Positions 5,678-43,380 of a DNA stretch of 64,000 nt are shown here, in pieces. This DNA comes from Halorubrum sodomense (GTDB lineage: Archaea > Halobacteriota > Halobacteria > Halobacteriales > Haloferacaceae), in the NCBI RefSeq assembly GCF_900111935.1, contig NZ_FOYN01000001.1, positions 310,001 through 374,000 on the forward strand, written 5' to 3'. Each line of letters opens with the position of its first letter. Position 1 is the stretch's first letter. The notes under the pieces were generated by a model. It did not search any database. It had not been told where the DNA came from and worked only from the letters and a program-made list of their open reading frames with translations. Both the position numbers and the translations under genes were made by a program.

Positions 5678-7414
5678 ATGGCCGTAAAGGAGATGGGCGA
5701 CGGGTTCGCGACGGCGCTCAAACTCACCTCCGAGGTGATGGAGTCGTACGACCAGCTCGACATCTCCAAGCGGAAGTACGTCGGGCTGGTGTTGCTGCCG
5801 GCCGTCCTCGTCTTCCTCGCGAGCGTCGTCGGGCTGATCGCGCTCCCTCTCCCGATCGCCGCTCGCGTCCCGATCCCGATGTTCGGCGGGCTCGTGCTGT
5901 TCGCGGCGGTCATCTACCCGAAGATCTACCTCTCCGGGCTGGAGACGAAGATCGACAACCAGCTACATCTCGTGATGACGCACATGACGGTGTTGTCGAC
6001 GACGAACATCGACCGGATGGAGGTGTTCCGGACCCTGGCGAAAGAGGAGGAGTACGGCGTCGCCGCCGAGGAGATCGGCCGCGTCGTCCACCTCGTCGAC
6101 ACGTGGAACCAGAGCCTCGACGACGCGTGTCGCCGCCGTGCACAGGAGGTTCCCTCCGACGCGATGGCCGACTTCTTCGACCGACTCGGCTACACGATGG
6201 GCGCGGGGCAGTCGTTAGAGGAGTTCCTCGTCTCCGAGCAGGACGTCATGCTGGCGCAGTACGAGACCCGATACGAGTCCGCGCTCTCGAACCTGGAGGT
6301 GATGAAGGACCTGTACATGTCGATGATCCTCTCGATGACGTTCGCGCTGGTGTTCGCCGTCGTCCTCCCGATCCTCACCGGCAACAACCCGACTGCGACG
6401 GTGGCGGCCGTCATCGTGCTGTTCGTGTTCGTTCAGCTCGGCTTCTACGCGATGATCCGCGCGACCTCGCCGTACGACCCGATCTGGTACCACCCGGACG
6501 AGCGGTCCCCCGGCGACCTGAAGCTGTGGGGGTCGCTGATCGCCGGCGGCGGGCTCTCGCTCCTGCTCATCGGGATCACGGCCGCCGGGATGTTCGGATA
6601 CGGTCCCGGCCTCCCCGGCCTCCTCTTCTTCCTCGACGACGTCCGGCTACCGCTGTACCTCGCGGTCCCCATCTCGCCGCTCATCATTACCGGGGTGATA
6701 CTCCGGAGCGAGGAGCAGGCGATCACGGCCCGCGACGGCGAGTTCCCCTCCTTCGTCCGCGCGCTGGGCGCGACCGAGAGCGCGAAGCAGTCGACGACCA
6801 CCGACGTGCTGACGACGCTGCGCGACAAGAACTTCGGCGAGCTCTCCGAGTCGATAGAGCGGCTCTACCGCCGACTCAACATGCGGATCAGCACTGAGGG
6901 CGCGTGGCGAGCGTTCTCGCGTGACACGCGCTCGTACCTCATCCAGAAGTTCTCCGAGATGTACCTCGTCGGCCGGCGGATGGGCGGGGACCCGAAGATG
7001 CTCGGCGAGCTGATCTCGAAGAACATGAACGCCGTCAACCAGCTGCGCGAGCAGCGGCGGCAGGCGGCGATGACGTTCATCGGCCTCCTGTACGGGATCA
7101 CCGCGGCCGCGACGTTCGCCTTCTTCATCGGGCTCGAGATCGTCGCCATCCTAGCGGACCTGACCGCCGATTTCGGGCTCGACCAGATGGACATCGGCCA
7201 GATCGTCTATCCCGGCGCCTACGACATCCCGCTCATCGAGTACCTCCTCCTGACGGTCGTGTTATTCAACGCGGCGCTCTCCTCGCAGATGATCCGCCGG
7301 ATCGACGGCGGCAACCCCGTGAACGGCTACATCCACTTCGTCCTCCTGACGTGGCTCGGCGCGGGCACCGCCATCGCCACGCGGACGCTCGTCAACGCGA
7401 TCCTGTCGATCTGA
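5678..7414 (+). CDS. arlJ: Archaellum membrane platform protein ArlJ (FlaJ)
   Basis: ArlJ is the polytopic membrane core of the archaellum motor, homologous to GspF/TadC, on which ArlI acts. The 578-residue protein has several clusters of hydrophobic helices (about residues 35-80, 205-250, 285-340, 465-500 and 530-575). They separate two cytoplasmic, charged domains typical of the T2SSF fold. It ends the operon. The following gene is on the other strand, 28 bp away. Confidence 0.93.
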   Translation: MAVKEMGDGFATALKLTSEVMESYDQLDISKRKYVGLVLLPAVLVFLASVVGLIALPLPIAARVPIPMFGGLVLFAAVIYPKIYLSGLETKIDNQLHLVMTHMTVLSTTNIDRMEVFRTLAKEEEYGVAAEEIGRVVHLVDTWNQSLDDACRRRAQEVPSDAMADFFDRLGYTMGAGQSLEEFLVSEQDVMLAQYETRYESALSNLEVMKDLYMSMILSMTFALVFAVVLPILTGNNPTATVAAVIVLFVFVQLGFYAMIRATSPYDPIWYHPDERSPGDLKLWGSLIAGGGLSLLLIGITAAGMFGYGPGLPGLLFFLDDVRLPLYLAVPISPLIITGVILRSEEQAITARDGEFPSFVRALGATESAKQSTTTDVLTTLRDKNFGELSESIERLYRRLNMRISTEGAWRAFSRDTRSYLIQKFSEMYLVGRRMGGDPKMLGELISKNMNAVNQLREQRRQAAMTFIGLLYGITAAATFAFFIGLEIVAILADLTADFGLDQMDIGQIVYPGAYDIPLIEYLLLTVVLFNAALSSQMIRRIDGGNPVNGYIHFVLLTWLGAGTAIATRTLVNAILSI

Positions 7415-7442
7415 CGGGGCGTCTCTCCTCTCCGGCCCCGCG

Positions 7443-8381
7443 TCACTCCTCGAACAGCGCCGGCTCGGCGACCGACTCGTCGGCCGCGTCGCGCCACGAG
7501 CGCGACGGCATCCACCCGAACAGCCGCTCCGCCTTCTCGATCGCGTAGGCGCCGCGGTCGTCGCCCCCGGCGAGTCGGCCCTCGTCGATCGCGCAGTCGT
7601 CCGGGATCTCGTCGTAGGACTCCCGCAGGAGGTCGAGCAGCGGCCGACCGAGCGCGTTGTCGGCCGCGACGCAGTTGACCGCCTCGTGGGCCCCCGGCTC
7701 GACGGACGGGTCGTCGCCGAGGAGGTCCGAGAGCGCGACCGCGACGAGGTCCGCGACGTCGCGCACGTCGACGTACGACCAGAAGTTACCGGCGCCGGCG
7801 TCGAGATCGGAGACGTACTCGTCCGCGCGACAGGCGTACGCGCCGGGGTACTGGATCCACGACGGGCGGATCGAGACGGCCGGCACGTCGCGGCGGCGCG
7901 CCACGGCGCCCGCGGCCGCCTCCGCGGTCACCTTCGAGAGCCCGTACGGGTCCTCGGGTCGGAGCGGATGGGCCTCGGTGATCGGTAACTCGTCCGGGAA
8001 CGGGGTCGGATCGGCGAAGAAGAAGCCGTAGGCGCCGTCGCTGGAGGCCTGGACGACCGGGGCGTCGGCCCGGCCGGCGGCGTCGAGGACGTGTTTCGCG
8101 GCGAGCGCGTTCGTCTCGAACACCCGTCCCTCGGGATGGGTGCCGGCGACGGGAATCGCCGCCCAGTGGACGACGGCATCGGGGTCGACGGCGGCGACGA
8201 CGTCGAGCGCCTGGTCGCGCTCGGCGAGGTCGGCCGCGCGGAACGAGACGTTCGGCGCGGGGTCGACGTCGAGTCCGGGGTGGTCGTAGTCGACGACGAC
8301 GACCTCGTGGTCGCCCGCGAGGCGGTCGACGACCCAGCGCCCGGAGGCGCCGCGGCCGCCGGTGACGAGGACTGTCTCCAT
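7443..8381 (-). CDS. NAD-dependent epimerase/dehydratase (extended SDR family)
   Basis: This is a short-chain dehydrogenase of the sugar epimerase type. The N-terminal nucleotide-binding motif is VTGGRGASGRWV (residues 5-16). Downstream are the expected acidic residue after strand 2 (VVVDYDHPG) and the active-site YGLSK motif. The substrate cannot be read from sequence, and no glycan cluster surrounds it. I chose the ATG at 8381 because it leads straight into the Rossmann motif and a T-rich TATA-like box (about 8403-8412) lies 27 bp upstream. Convergent with arlJ. Confidence 0.85.
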   Translation of the reverse strand: METVLVTGGRGASGRWVVDRLAGDHEVVVVDYDHPGLDVDPAPNVSFRAADLAERDQALDVVAAVDPDAVVHWAAIPVAGTHPEGRVFETNALAAKHVLDAAGRADAPVVQASSDGAYGFFFADPTPFPDELPITEAHPLRPEDPYGLSKVTAEAAAGAVARRRDVPAVSIRPSWIQYPGAYACRADEYVSDLDAGAGNFWSYVDVRDVADLVAVALSDLLGDDPSVEPGAHEAVNCVAADNALGRPLLDLLRESYDEIPDDCAIDEGRLAGGDDRGAYAIEKAERLFGWMPSRSWRDAADESVAEPALFEE

Positions 8382-38813: not shown

Positions 38814-39043
38814 CGCCCCGAACCACGGCGCCGCGATCAGTTCGCCGCCGCGCGCCCCGAGGACCCTCGAACCCGAGCCCGACCGCCAGTCCGGTCCGAG
38901 GAGCGCGCCGACGCACGCCGTCGACCACGAGGCCGTTGAGAGACCGACGGCTGAGGCGGGTTTCCGGCCGAAATGACGGTCTCCGCGTTCCGGCGCTCGC
39001 GGCCGCAGTAGTTTTAATATCAACGTCGAAATACGACTGACCC

Positions 39044-40924
39044 GTGACACTCCGAGTGAACGGGAGCTGCCGGTTCCGCTTTCCGGTGCCCGACTACGAG
39101 GCGGCGTTCCCGTGGCTTGACTCCCCCCCGAAGTGGCGCCTCGGGAGCGCCGATGCGGGGTCCGGCGTCGAGGACGGCGCCTGGCACTGCCCCCACGAGG
39201 CGTACGGCGACCGCGACCGGTGTCTCTTCCACCTCGACCCCGACGAGCGGCCGCCGAGCGACCGCGCGAACGTCTCCGTCCGACTCGTCGAGACCGTCGC
39301 GGCGGCGAACGAGGAGAGCGACCCGGTCGTCAGCCGGCGGCGCTGCCAGTTCGTCGGCGCGAAGTTTCCGACGCTCGACCTCGAACAGCGCGAGATCGGC
39401 GGCGGGAGCCGGGAGACGATCGACTTCAGACACGCGGAGTTCGGCGCCGTCGTCTGTCGGAAGACCGAGTTCGCGCAGCCGGTCGACTTCTCCGGCGCGA
39501 CGTTCGACCCCGGGGCCGCGCCGCCGGCCGACCCCGGCACCGACGTCCTCGACCCGACCCTGGAGAGCGTCCCCTTCGGGATCGACTTCAGCCGCGCGAC
39601 GTTCTCGGACTTCCTCGAACTCAAGAGCGCGCTGTTCCGCCGACCGGCGCTGTTCCGCGAGGCGCAGTTCGACAGGGCCGTCAGCGCCGGTCACGCCCGG
39701 TTCCTGGATCACGCCTCCTTCCTCGCGGCCGACTTCGACGACCTGGCGATGTTCAACGACGCCCTGTTCCGCCGCGACGCCCGCTTCCAAGCCGCCCGGT
39801 TCTTCGACCTCGCGGACTTCAAGCGCGCGTGCTTCGGCGGTCGAGTCAACTTCGACAGGGTGCTCTGCGAGGGCGACCTCGAAGTCGACGAGTCGGACTT
39901 CGTCGAGCCGCCCCCCGACGGCCCCGTCCGGTCGACCCCGGCGTTCAGGGGGTCGCTGAGCGCGGACATGGCGGTCGTGACCGGTCGCCTCTCGCTCAAC
40001 CGCGTCGCCGTCGTCGACGACGTTCGGGTCCGGGACGCGGAGCTGTCGCGGATCCGGTTCGAGTCGCCGGACACCGGCGGGGAGACCGGGTACGTCGACC
40101 TGAGTCGCTCGACCGTGAACCGGGGGACGCTCGGGCAGCCCGCCGCCGAGGGAGAGATGCTGTACGACCTGTACCGGGCGACGCTGGGCGACGTCAAGTT
40201 CAGCGGCGACGCCGACGAGCTCCTCTCCACCCGGATTCGGATCCTCCGGACGCGCTACGACGGGTTCGACTTCACCGACGAGGACTCCGTCGACCTCTCT
40301 CGCGTCGACAACTGGATCCACCGGTTCGAGGTCGACCCGATGGCGCTCCCCTGCTACTGCGGTGACGGGCCCGAACACGTCGGACGCTACATCATCGACG
40401 ACGCGGTCTGCCCGCGTCACGACCGGGAGTCCGACAACGCCGCGCTCCAGGCGACGTACGCGTACGCGAAAAACGGCGCGGACGAGGCCGGGGACAACGT
40501 CAGCGCCGGGGCGTTCTTCTACCGCGAGATGCGGTTCAACCGGGCGGAGTACTTCGACAACGCGCTGCGCGGCGACGCCGAGTCCGGCGTCCTCGGCCGA
40601 GTCAGGAACGGCTCTCGGTGGACCCGGTCGTGGTTGCTCGCGGCCTCGACGGGCTACGGTGAACTGCCGTATCGGGTGGTCGTCACGTCGTTGGCACTCA
40701 TCGGCGGCTTCGGGTACGTCTACTGGAACTGGTCCGGCCTCGCCGCTGAACAGGGCCCGGTCGAGGCGCTGATCTTCTCGTTCCAGTCGTTCATCTCGTT
40801 CGTGCTCGGCCCCCCGGGGACGACGACGCTGGTCCAGGAGATCCTCTCGGCGGTGGAGGGGTTCGTCGGAGCGTTCCTGATCGCGCTGTTCGTGTTCACG
40901 TTCACCCGCCGCATTCACCGCTGA
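39044..40924 (+). CDS. Pentapeptide-repeat-like protein with C-terminal channel-like membrane domain
   Basis: The 626-residue product begins at GTG 39044, about 27 bp after a TATA-like ttttaatatc. The N-terminus has a Cys/His cluster (WHCPHEAYGDRDRCLFH). Residues about 95-310 show degenerate A(D/N)F-type pentapeptide repeats (FRHAEFGAV, DFSRATFSDF, ARFLDHASF, LADFKRACFGG). A second Cys/His cluster (CYCGDGPEHVG then CPRH) is at about 440-465. The last 90 residues hold two membrane helices flanking a re-entrant-like segment (SFQSFISFVLGPPGTTTL), as in two-helix ion channels. A canonical TVGYG filter is absent. Function unknown; channel activity is inferred. Confidence 0.72.
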   Translation: MTLRVNGSCRFRFPVPDYEAAFPWLDSPPKWRLGSADAGSGVEDGAWHCPHEAYGDRDRCLFHLDPDERPPSDRANVSVRLVETVAAANEESDPVVSRRRCQFVGAKFPTLDLEQREIGGGSRETIDFRHAEFGAVVCRKTEFAQPVDFSGATFDPGAAPPADPGTDVLDPTLESVPFGIDFSRATFSDFLELKSALFRRPALFREAQFDRAVSAGHARFLDHASFLAADFDDLAMFNDALFRRDARFQAARFFDLADFKRACFGGRVNFDRVLCEGDLEVDESDFVEPPPDGPVRSTPAFRGSLSADMAVVTGRLSLNRVAVVDDVRVRDAELSRIRFESPDTGGETGYVDLSRSTVNRGTLGQPAAEGEMLYDLYRATLGDVKFSGDADELLSTRIRILRTRYDGFDFTDEDSVDLSRVDNWIHRFEVDPMALPCYCGDGPEHVGRYIIDDAVCPRHDRESDNAALQATYAYAKNGADEAGDNVSAGAFFYREMRFNRAEYFDNALRGDAESGVLGRVRNGSRWTRSWLLAASTGYGELPYRVVVTSLALIGGFGYVYWNWSGLAAEQGPVEALIFSFQSFISFVLGPPGTTTLVQEILSAVEGFVGAFLIALFVFTFTRRIHR

Positions 40925-40983
40925 CGACGCCGCTTCCGGCGTGACCACCACAAAAAAGAGCCTGGCTTTCGTACGCGGTTCCA

Positions 40984-43380
40984 ATGGTGACTCACCTCGT
41001 CTCCGCCGTCGACTCCTACTCCCTCTCCGACGACGCCGTCGAACTCCGCTGCCGACTCGAGACTCCCGGGACCGAGACGACCCCCGACGAGGACCGAACC
41101 GTCCCGGTCCGGATCCGGTTTTTCGCGCCCGACGTGTTCCGGTTCGAGATGCTCTCGACGCCGGAGAACCCGACCTCGGAGTCCCCGATCTCGTACGATC
41201 TCGACGCCGTCACGCGTCCGGTCTCGCTGTCCGCGAGCGAGCGTGACGGGACGCTCCGGGTCGAGACGTCGGCGCTTTCGGTGCGGATCGGCCTGGGGGA
41301 GTGGTCCTTCGAGGTCCGCGCGGACGGCGATCGACTCCTCCGCGAGCGCCGCGACGACCGCACCGCCAAGGGCGAGCGACGGACGCAGCCGCTGCGGTTC
41401 GTCGAGGAGGAGGTCAACCGCTGGCCGCTCCGGGTGACCGAGACGGGGACGGCGTTCGGCCTGGGCCCGGACGAGCGCCTCTTCGGCCTGGGCGAGAAGT
41501 TCACGGACCTCGACAAGCGCGGACAGGCGATCGAGTCGTGGGTGACCCAGCCGAACGGGACCGAGACCGAGTTCGCGCACAAGAACGTCCCGCTGTACCT
41601 CTCGACACGCGGATACGGGCTCCTAGCCGACACCGCCCGCAAGACCACCTTCGACTTCGGGGCGTCCTCCTCCGGGACCATCGACCTCCGCGTGGAGGGC
41701 GACGCCCTGCGGTTCTTCTTTTTCACCGGCGACCGGCTGAAGGAGCTGCTCCGACAGTACACCGCGCTCACCGGACGCCCGCACCGCCCGGAGCGGTGGA
41801 CGTTCGGCCTGTGGATGTCGCGGCTCAGCTACCAGTCCCGGTCGGAGCTCGAGTCGGTGGCCGACGCCCTCAGGGAGCGGGAGATCCCCTGCGACGTGCT
41901 CCACGTCGACCCGTACTGGATGGACATCGAGAGCATCTGCGACCTGGAGTGGGACGAGGAGGCGTTCCCGGCCCCCGAGGCGATGATCGAGTCGCTCTCC
42001 GACCGCGGCTTCAAGCTCTCCCTCTGGGAGTACCCGTACGTCCGGGTCGATTCACCGCTGTTCGAGGAGTTCGCCGACCGCGGGTTCTTCGTCGAGGACG
42101 GGGCCGGAGACCCGTACGTCCTCTCGCGGCTCAGCGTCGACGACCGCGGCGGTATCGTCGACTTTACCGATCCCGACGCCCGGGAGTGGTGGTCGGACCG
42201 GCACCGGGAGCTGGCCGAGTCGGGCGTCGACGTGTTCAAGCTCGACTTCGGGGAGTACCTCCCGCGGGACGCCGTGTTGAGCAACGGGAAGACCGGCGCG
42301 GCGATGCGGAACCGCTACCCGCGGCTGTACTACGAAACGGTTCAGAACGCGCTCCGCGAGGCCGGGCGGGACCGGCCGACGCTGTGGGTCCGCTCCGGCT
42401 GGATCGGCGACCAGGAGTTCCCGATACACTGGGGCGGCGACCCCGACACGACCTTCGAGGCGATGGCGGCGAACCTCCGGGGAGGACTCAGCCTCGCGCT
42501 CTCGGGGTACTCCTTCTGGGCCACTGACATCGGCGGTTTCCGCGGCGAGCCCACGCCGGAACTGTACGTCCGCTGGGCCCAGTGGGGACTGTTGGGGACC
42601 AGCCACGCCCGCTTCCACGGGACGACGCCCCGGGAACCGTGGCACTTCGGCGAGGAGGCGGAGGCGATCGTTCGCGACTACGCGAAGGAGCGCTACCGCC
42701 TCCTCCCGTACCTGTACTCGTACGCCGAACGGGCCGCCAGGACGGGTCTCCCGGTGATGCGGCCGCTGGTGCTCGAGTTCGAGGACGACCCGGCCGCGGC
42801 GGGCGTCGACACGCAGCTCCTCCTGGGAGAGGAGATCCTGGTCGCCCCGATACTGCGTCCGGGCGGCCGACGGGAGGTGTACCTCCCCGAGGGGGAGTGG
42901 GTCGACTACTGGTCCGGCGCGCGGCACGAGGGCGGACGCTCGATCGACGTCGACGTTCCGCTCGACACGATGCCGGTGTACGTCCGCGCTGGCAGCGTCG
43001 TTCCGTACCGTCCGTGGACGCAGCACCTCGACGGCGATCCCGGACCGATCCACCTCCGGGTCGAGTTCGGCTCCCGGGGCGAGACCTCCGGCCCCCGCGA
43101 GGCGACGTTCGAGTACTTCGACGAGTCCGCCGACGAGTTCGTCCCCGTCGCGGCGGCTCACGAGACCGCGGCCGACTCGGTGACGCTCGACGTTCCGGGA
43201 GGCGTCGCGTCCGCCCGCCTGCGGCGCTTCGACGATCCGCCGGCGTCGCTCGCGGTCAACGGCGACTCGTACGAGCGCGTCGCCGGCGATCCCGGCCCCG
43301 GCGAGTGGACGCACGCCGACGGCGACGGCGCCGTCCGCGTCGTCATCGCGGCGACGGACGGCGAGAACCCCCTGCCGTGA
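40984..43380 (+). CDS. Glycoside hydrolase family 31, alpha-xylosidase-like
   Basis: This retaining alpha-glycosidase most resembles YicI-type alpha-xylosidase. The nucleophile is Asp421 in VFKLDFGEYLP and the acid/base Asp486 in PIHWGGD; spacing and context match YicI. The GH31 barrel is preceded by a beta-sandwich with FGLGEKFTDLDKRGQ and followed by C-terminal beta domains. There is no signal peptide, so it acts in the cytosol on imported oligosaccharides. The neighbouring Gfo/Idh enzyme resembles a xylose dehydrogenase, which supports a xyloside substrate. Alpha-glucosidase activity remains possible. Confidence 0.86.
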   Translation: MVTHLVSAVDSYSLSDDAVELRCRLETPGTETTPDEDRTVPVRIRFFAPDVFRFEMLSTPENPTSESPISYDLDAVTRPVSLSASERDGTLRVETSALSVRIGLGEWSFEVRADGDRLLRERRDDRTAKGERRTQPLRFVEEEVNRWPLRVTETGTAFGLGPDERLFGLGEKFTDLDKRGQAIESWVTQPNGTETEFAHKNVPLYLSTRGYGLLADTARKTTFDFGASSSGTIDLRVEGDALRFFFFTGDRLKELLRQYTALTGRPHRPERWTFGLWMSRLSYQSRSELESVADALREREIPCDVLHVDPYWMDIESICDLEWDEEAFPAPEAMIESLSDRGFKLSLWEYPYVRVDSPLFEEFADRGFFVEDGAGDPYVLSRLSVDDRGGIVDFTDPDAREWWSDRHRELAESGVDVFKLDFGEYLPRDAVLSNGKTGAAMRNRYPRLYYETVQNALREAGRDRPTLWVRSGWIGDQEFPIHWGGDPDTTFEAMAANLRGGLSLALSGYSFWATDIGGFRGEPTPELYVRWAQWGLLGTSHARFHGTTPREPWHFGEEAEAIVRDYAKERYRLLPYLYSYAERAARTGLPVMRPLVLEFEDDPAAAGVDTQLLLGEEILVAPILRPGGRREVYLPEGEWVDYWSGARHEGGRSIDVDVPLDTMPVYVRAGSVVPYRPWTQHLDGDPGPIHLRVEFGSRGETSGPREATFEYFDESADEFVPVAAAHETAADSVTLDVPGGVASARLRRFDDPPASLAVNGDSYERVAGDPGPGEWTHADGDGAVRVVIAATDGENPLP

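Follow-up and report, generated by a model that had tools for sequence, protein, structure and literature searches.

A clade of haloarchaeal pentapeptide-repeat proteins with a K+ channel-like pore module and a hydrophobic strand at the selectivity-filter position

Background

What might a protein do that joins a pentapeptide-repeat solenoid to an apparent two-helix channel pore and has no TxGYG at the place of the selectivity filter? Filters of the TxGYG type are near-universal in K+ channels. The question is raised by a gene of Halorubrum sodomense lying in a 64,000-nucleotide stretch of contig NZ_FOYN01000001.1, referred to here as the window. A first-pass annotation of this stretch had described the product as a degenerate pentapeptide solenoid flanked by two Cys/His clusters and followed by a pore module of about 90 residues, with FVLGPPGTT standing for TVGYG.

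Loss of TxGYG from otherwise intact channel genes is represented in the literature that we found, in its accessible parts, by a few NirBacs and by TbIRK. Among the matches listed, in a search that took in few subscription papers, none dealt with filterless pores coupled to pentapeptide repeats, and in the available portion of a 2021 review of pentapeptide proteins the word 'channel' is absent from the main text (PMC8145042). Here we present evidence that the window protein belongs to a family whose members group as a single clade.

Results and discussion

A conserved gene with a solenoid and a short C-terminal module

The 626-residue open reading frame is real, intact and conserved (Table 1), its nearest named relatives being those of Halorubrum distributum (87% identity) and of H. 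persicum and H. lipolyticum (56-57%). Comparison with the 87%-identical orthologue gives dN/dS values of 0.15-0.45 per region, and purifying selection is seen in the near-orthologue pairs. When the window protein is set against the relatives L035 and L036, conservation among the large regions is highest in TM2 (77% identity, versus 54-56% for the solenoid), and the pore-loop region, at 50-57%, is conserved no better than the solenoid; four pairs give dN/dS values between 0.19 and 0.87 for this pore-loop region. The lowest dN/dS of seven regions, 0.14 and 0.13 against the same two relatives, falls in the second Cys/His cluster. A box similar to the one upstream of the window gene, ttttatta for ttttaata, occurs at an equal distance from the start in L034, the relative used for this comparison, since the 5' stretches of L035 and L036 start some codons within the alignment, and the position of the TATA-like box suggests a leaderless transcript. 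An antisense open frame of 654 residues (39020-40984, minus strand) spans the whole gene; the genome being GC-rich, this frame is most likely a mechanical by-product.

Pentapeptide_3 is the only Pfam family found in the window protein (E 1.1e-11; 45.2 bits against a cut-off of 27), matching in four stretches of which residues 195-240 are the best, and Ion_trans_2 (PF07885) gives no match in it at E<=10. An NCBIfam search with the window protein returned a single sub-threshold match (E 0.11), and a single-sequence search of the PDB only a match at chance level (E 0.87). Both Cys/His patterns noted in the first pass, C49-P-H51-E-A-x6-C60-L-F-H63 and C437-Y-C439-x5-H445-x10-C456-P-R-H459, are present and flank the solenoid.

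Table 1. Features of the gene and its product, in positions of the window
Feature	Position	Strand	Basis
Whole gene, 626 aa, GTG start	39044..40924	+	Intact frame; orthologues 87/56/57% identical
TATA-like box ttttaata, ~28 bp 5' of start codon	39012..39019	+	Read from sequence
First Cys/His cluster, residues 49-63 (CPHEAYGDRDRCLFH), putative zinc site	39188..39232	+	Regex
Degenerate pentapeptide-repeat solenoid, residues ~101-430, limits approximate	39344..40333	+	Pentapeptide_3; strands of low-confidence model
Second Cys/His cluster, residues 437-459	40352..40420	+	Regex; dN/dS
Linker motif, residues 469-502 (...TYAYAKNGADEAGDN...FFYREM...), common to GYG-bearing relatives	40448..40549	+	Alignment A1; consensus of A4
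Juxtamembrane GYGELP motif, residues 537-542, distinct from selectivity filter	40652..40669	+	Alignment
TM1, residues 542-563	40667..40732	+	AlphaFold helix; TM1-to-filter profile match 93.1%
Pore helix, residues 572-588, with S579 and Q581	40757..40807	+	AlphaFold; column counts
Filter position, S585-F586-V587-L588-G589 for T-x-G-Y-G	40796..40810	+	Alignments; column counts
TM2, residues 596-626, end of protein	40829..40921	+	AlphaFold helix; column counts; TM2-alone match 98.3%

The C-terminus is related to K+ channel pores through GYG-bearing pentapeptide proteins

The same genome encodes a paralogue, L002, an open frame of 1499 residues whose C-terminus aligns with that of the window protein: its segment FSIVTFTTLGYGD stands opposite FSFQSFISFVLGP, and LYFSIVTFTTLGYGDIQP opposite LIFSFQSFISFVLGPPG, so placing TTLGYGD against SFVLG. 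GYG-bearing pentapeptide K+ channels such as L002 share with the window protein the solenoid, the linker motif, a GYGERP-like motif, TM1, the pore helix and TM2; they differ from it in having TTLGYGD for SFVLG, V/I/L rather than Q/E at residue 581 and Gly rather than Thr at residue 621.

Over the last 88 columns of the model, profile comparison of the filterless sequences with the GYG/GxG pentapeptide channels gives a probability of 99.5% with E 1.1e-22, a score reached by 0/60 full and 0/60 block shuffles. The match survives when the juxtamembrane motif is left out (TM1 to the end, 99.0%), and TM1-to-filter and TM2 are each recovered alone (93.1% and 98.3%), with 0/60 column shuffles as high in every case. 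The GYG/GxG pentapeptide channels are in turn linked to plain K+ pores of relatives (97.9%, E 5.3e-13), a set of 20 drawn from 24 loci after exclusion of three without a filter motif and removal of L154, which is of the GYG pentapeptide type by sequence. Direct comparison of filterless with plain pores stays at chance level (1.5%, E 0.034; 1/60 full and 5/60 block shuffles as high), and descent from a K+ channel pore therefore rests on this two-step chain. On the profile evidence we regard such descent of the TM1-P-TM2 module as well supported, and the module that the first pass had seen in the last ~90 residues thus has homology behind it.

At E<=0.01 the GYG-type profile (A4) matches 244 distinct sequences of the PDB; of the 60 that were listed, almost every one bears the name of a K+ channel. 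The profile A1, built from 31 rows (30 filterless and one canonical), finds three at E<=1, all of the KirBac1.1 type (PDB 7swj, 1p7b) with a best E of 0.082; these matches include the E-x-F-x-G pattern of TM2. KirBac1.1 itself has a canonical filter and a Kir cytoplasmic domain. Ion_trans_2 matches just 4/31 A1 members at E<=10, and 31/31 are matched over residues 575-625 by phrog_15350, a PHROGs family without assigned function. For relatives in plasmid records the usual name is 'pentapeptide repeat-containing protein', some being entered as 'potassium channel family protein'.

A conserved hydrophobic strand stands at the filter position

C-termini were fetched across the order, aligned to one profile and sorted by their filter columns, so that the counts below are of fetched rows. 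The 117 distinct rows of sufficient length comprise 79 without a GxG filter, 25 with GYG, 9 with GLG, GFG or GMG and four with broken filters (TTVDYG, TTLGNN, TTLGYA, TLEYVG). Six of the rows (L098, L100, L102, L105, L106 and L110), with TLGLGD for TLGYGD, form a sub-clade with SH-aLRT 98.

The columns of T-x-G-Y-G fall in the window protein on S585-F586-V587-L588-G589, in which, of the two filter glycines, the second alone is retained. 'Filterless' denotes absence of the GxG filter, and the first glycine is missing in 79/79 rows partly by definition; the finding is what replaces it. Residue 587 is V/I/L/F in 75/79 filterless rows (M/H/S/P in the other four) and Gly in 34/34 filter-bearing ones. 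Around it, S579 is present in 79/79 filterless rows and F583 in 77/79, residue 585 is T/A/S and residue 586 F/L in 73/79 each, and G589 is retained in 68/79. Residue 581 is Q/E in 61/79 against V/I/L in 34/34 filter-bearing rows. The constraint extends into TM2, with E/Q605 in 79/79, G609 in 78/79, R622 in 72/79 and R626 in 74/74 of the rows that reach it, and with phenylalanines at 607 (69/79), 611 (73/79) and 618 (74/79); residue 621 is Thr in 75/79 filterless and Gly in 25/34 filter-bearing rows. The clade thus carries a conserved signature, S-x-[QE]-S-F-x-[TSA]-[FL]-[VIL]-L-G, along with a strongly conserved TM2 ending in Arg.

The first-pass reading of the filter stood in part: the position does hold a filter of non-K+ type, and GPPG, which had been taken into it, lies after the filter position. 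Nor is GPPG conserved among homologues, being found in 2/79 filterless rows, namely the window protein and its 87%-identical orthologue. We take residue 581 to correspond to Glu71 of KcsA and to the pore-helix Glu of Kir channels, and residue 587 to Gly77 of KcsA, a position with a backbone geometry not readily accessible to a bulky residue; for this reason a four-site K+ filter would probably be unable to form. The hydrophobic character of the strand would be compatible with a closed, non-conducting core as well.

The Cys/His clusters are distributed unevenly over the same rows. A regular expression for the first is matched in 46/79 filterless, 7/9 GxG and 1/4 degenerate rows, and in 1/25 GYG rows, 11 of which are cut at the 5' end; among filterless relatives whose 5' end lies within the fetched DNA the figure is 40/57. 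The second cluster is confined to 4/79 filterless rows, those of the window gene and of the three relatives nearest to it.

Topology and predicted structure

Filterless sequences contain on average 4.63 Lys plus Arg residues before TM1, 0.20 between TM1 and the pore helix, 0.19 after the filter position and 2.05 in the last seven columns, and filter-bearing rows show a similar distribution (4.97, 0.53, 0.12 and 2.35). As the charge is high in the flanks and low beside the pore helix, it fits a topology in which both ends would be cytoplasmic with a re-entrant segment between them. As to the re-entrant loop, whose absence would have counted against the first-pass reading, both AlphaFold runs put a 17-residue helix and a loop between the terminal helices, at a pLDDT of only ~40-60, and the charge distribution is the better support for such a segment. 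With four input sequences AlphaFold places helices at 542-563, 572-588 and 596-625, and in the low-confidence model the solenoid shows regularly spaced short strands, a pattern that may reflect a right-handed quadrilateral beta helix, with a block at residues 181-270 of pLDDT 60-74; mean pLDDT is only 43 for the full protein and 48 for the C-terminus, so that the geometry is not established by these models. A Foldseek search of the PDB with the C-terminal model gave 71 matches at E<=10, of which none reached 0.001; a mutant of NaK, ranked 29th with E 5.9, was given no weight as a fold match. The first-pass architecture of a solenoid and a two-helix pore module is supported by homology and appears right.

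Spread of the family and history of the filter

Relatives, filter-bearing ones included, were found in 85/170 genomes of the family by a full-protein search and in 210/392 genomes of the order by the C-terminal profile. With the filter columns dropped, the 79 filterless rows form one clade (SH-aLRT 97). In a stricter tree made without the whole pore block, from which the long branches L129, L126 and L124 were omitted, 77 filterless rows group together with the degenerate row L103 (support 100/93); the 77 alone form one group in 0/200 trees of an unconverged bootstrap, and forcing that grouping is not rejected (p-AU 0.49). On addition of 20 further archaeal rows from other orders (L229-L248, the better-scoring ones of a search of the phylum), and with L129 and L126 omitted, the 77 stay one clade with SH-aLRT 89. 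Short rows (L004, L125, L142, L143 and L145) were dropped before tree building. The deep branches are uncertain, since no more than 166 alignment columns underlie the trees, along with a profile seeded with 30 filterless sequences and one canonical sequence.

Broken or variant filters recur among the added rows (LGYSN, LGFSN, SFPN, MSYKE, AQSPP, LQPHDS and TPGFGG), and with hand-set labels parsimony requires a minimum of 5 changes between intact and lost filters on one tree. On this evidence the filter was broken on more than one occasion among these archaeal relatives; the trees being unrooted, that it was lost rather than gained is read from its near-universal presence in K+ channels at large. 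L115, whose degenerate filter is TLEYVG, adjoins a clade of GYG channels on a branch that is short for that tree, and is possibly a younger instance of the same process.

Genomic context

In 15/39 searched genomes there is exactly one A1 match, in each case a filterless gene. In 15/15 of these genomes, one of which (G136) is just 79% complete, the GYG-type profile has no further full-domain match, and their residual A4 matches reach at most 31.6 bits over 35-56 profile positions. Because none of the 15 has a GYG pentapeptide partner, the filterless gene does not need one, and a role as obligate silent subunit of such a channel is unsupported; ordinary K+ channels may still be its partners or co-residents.

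Neighbouring genes were compared in 21 loci, the window and 20 selected ones, several of them closely related. A GH31 gene lies downstream on the same strand in 5/21, four of these being near orthologues, and other recurring families occur in at most 4 of the 21 loci, so that beyond GH31 the neighbours are uninformative as to an operon logic. The GH31 glycosidase gene lies at 40984-43380 (+) in the window and at 5790-8129 (-) in L183, from another genus, and a Gfo/Idh/MocA oxidoreductase gene stands beside it in the window, L176 and L183. A role in defence was set aside, there being no PADLOC match for the gene and its two neighbours. No viral relative was found in a scan of IMG/VR with A1, nor did two C-termini compared by tblastn with phage records give any match, despite the match to phrog_15350.

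A pore under solenoid control, or a receptor built on an old pore

We consider the balance to be even on the reading that best accounts for these observations, a pore that is not K+-selective and is gated by its solenoid, on a logic like that of NirBac. A cytoplasm-facing sensor, composed of the zinc-like N-terminal knuckle, the pentapeptide solenoid and the helical linker, would be fused to a 2-TM/P-loop pore of K+ channel descent. In one haloarchaeal lineage the K+ filter has been exchanged for the hydrophobic strand [TSA]-[FL]-[VIL]-L-G, a few pore-helix positions and TM2 being kept under strong constraint. The protein would assemble as a homotetramer in which the four-site K+ filter could not form; the result would be a cation pore of no selectivity or of a different one, and the cytoplasmic solenoid would determine when it opens. 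This would amount to the NirBac solution with another regulatory domain.

According to the accessible part of the report, NirBac1.1 and NirBac1.2, which lack TxGYG, assemble into stable oligomers and conduct Na+, K+, Rb+ and other ions; as in the window clade, a 2-TM/P-loop pore of K+ channel descent has had its filter replaced and the rest of the pore kept (PMC4607889). In that source NirBac is represented by few bacterial sequences and has a Kir cytoplasmic domain, and conduction was shown for it (PMC4607889). The window protein, in contrast, carries an N-terminal pentapeptide solenoid and ends right after TM2, its clade comprises 79 distinct sampled rows, and on its side kinship to the KirBac-type pore of NirBac amounts to the A1 match in the PDB at E 0.082.

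The main rival is a non-conducting receptor, in which the old pore tetramer would do no more than hold the solenoid sensor in the membrane and pass on its signal. That the first filter glycine is gone in 79/79 rows and replaced by a hydrophobic strand would suit it, as would a pore-loop region conserved no more than the solenoid between the window protein and L035/L036, and filters broken repeatedly in the wider family, with a parsimony minimum of 5 changes between intact and lost, are what would be expected if K+ conduction were dispensable. We nonetheless think it somewhat unlikely: TM2, at 77% identity against 54-56% for the solenoid and with polar and glycine positions that hardly vary within the clade, is conserved beyond the needs of a mere anchor, and NirBac, as far as the accessible text goes, indicates that conduction can survive loss of the filter (PMC4607889). 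Retention of K+ preference through an alternative filter has its own precedent in TbIRK of Trypanosoma brucei, a eukaryotic protein with a Kir-like pore and GGYVG for TxGYG, for which the available part of the source gives pK/pNa ~7 (PMC5429665), and the second filter glycine is kept in 68/79 filterless rows. With a single glycine left and V/I/L/F at the position of the first, as opposed to the glycine-rich replacement of TbIRK, the window clade makes this distinctly unlikely.

Two further explanations were weighed. Haloarchaea live under osmotic stress, and the hydrophobic filter strand together with the conserved TM2 phenylalanines (F607, F611 and F618) might suggest a mechanosensitive or osmotic release pore with a hydrophobic gate; this is quite improbable, given that kinship to Msc channels is limited to one chance-level match (1/31 A1 members, E 0.078) and that the proteins, even with their filter-bearing relatives, occur in just about half of the genomes searched. 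It is very improbable, finally, that the protein is an unrelated membrane protein with two or three TM segments resembling a channel by chance. Silence of Pfam on the C-terminus, models of low confidence and the chance-level score of the direct comparison with plain K+ pores would agree with such an origin; against these stand the alignment of both the linker motif and the pore region with GYG paralogues and a profile probability of 99.5%, with each pore segment significant alone and shuffles never as high.

Conclusions

We tentatively propose, on sequence grounds and while holding the proposal to fall somewhat short of probable, that a large haloarchaeal family has turned a K+ channel pore into a pore or receptor under control of a solenoid, with a conserved filter signature of its own, and that it would constitute a separate functional P-loop class rather than a set of decayed channels. 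The family sits in a wider archaeal group in which the filter appears to have been broken several times. The clade is widely sampled and has filter-keeping sister groups as well as intermediates (GLG, GFG, DYG, GYA and GNN), through which the loss of K+ selectivity in a P-loop pore, and its replacement, become testable. It is of greater interest as a clade than as a single gene, and it suggests that relatives of channels can be found among archaeal proteins whose only name is 'pentapeptide repeat-containing'.
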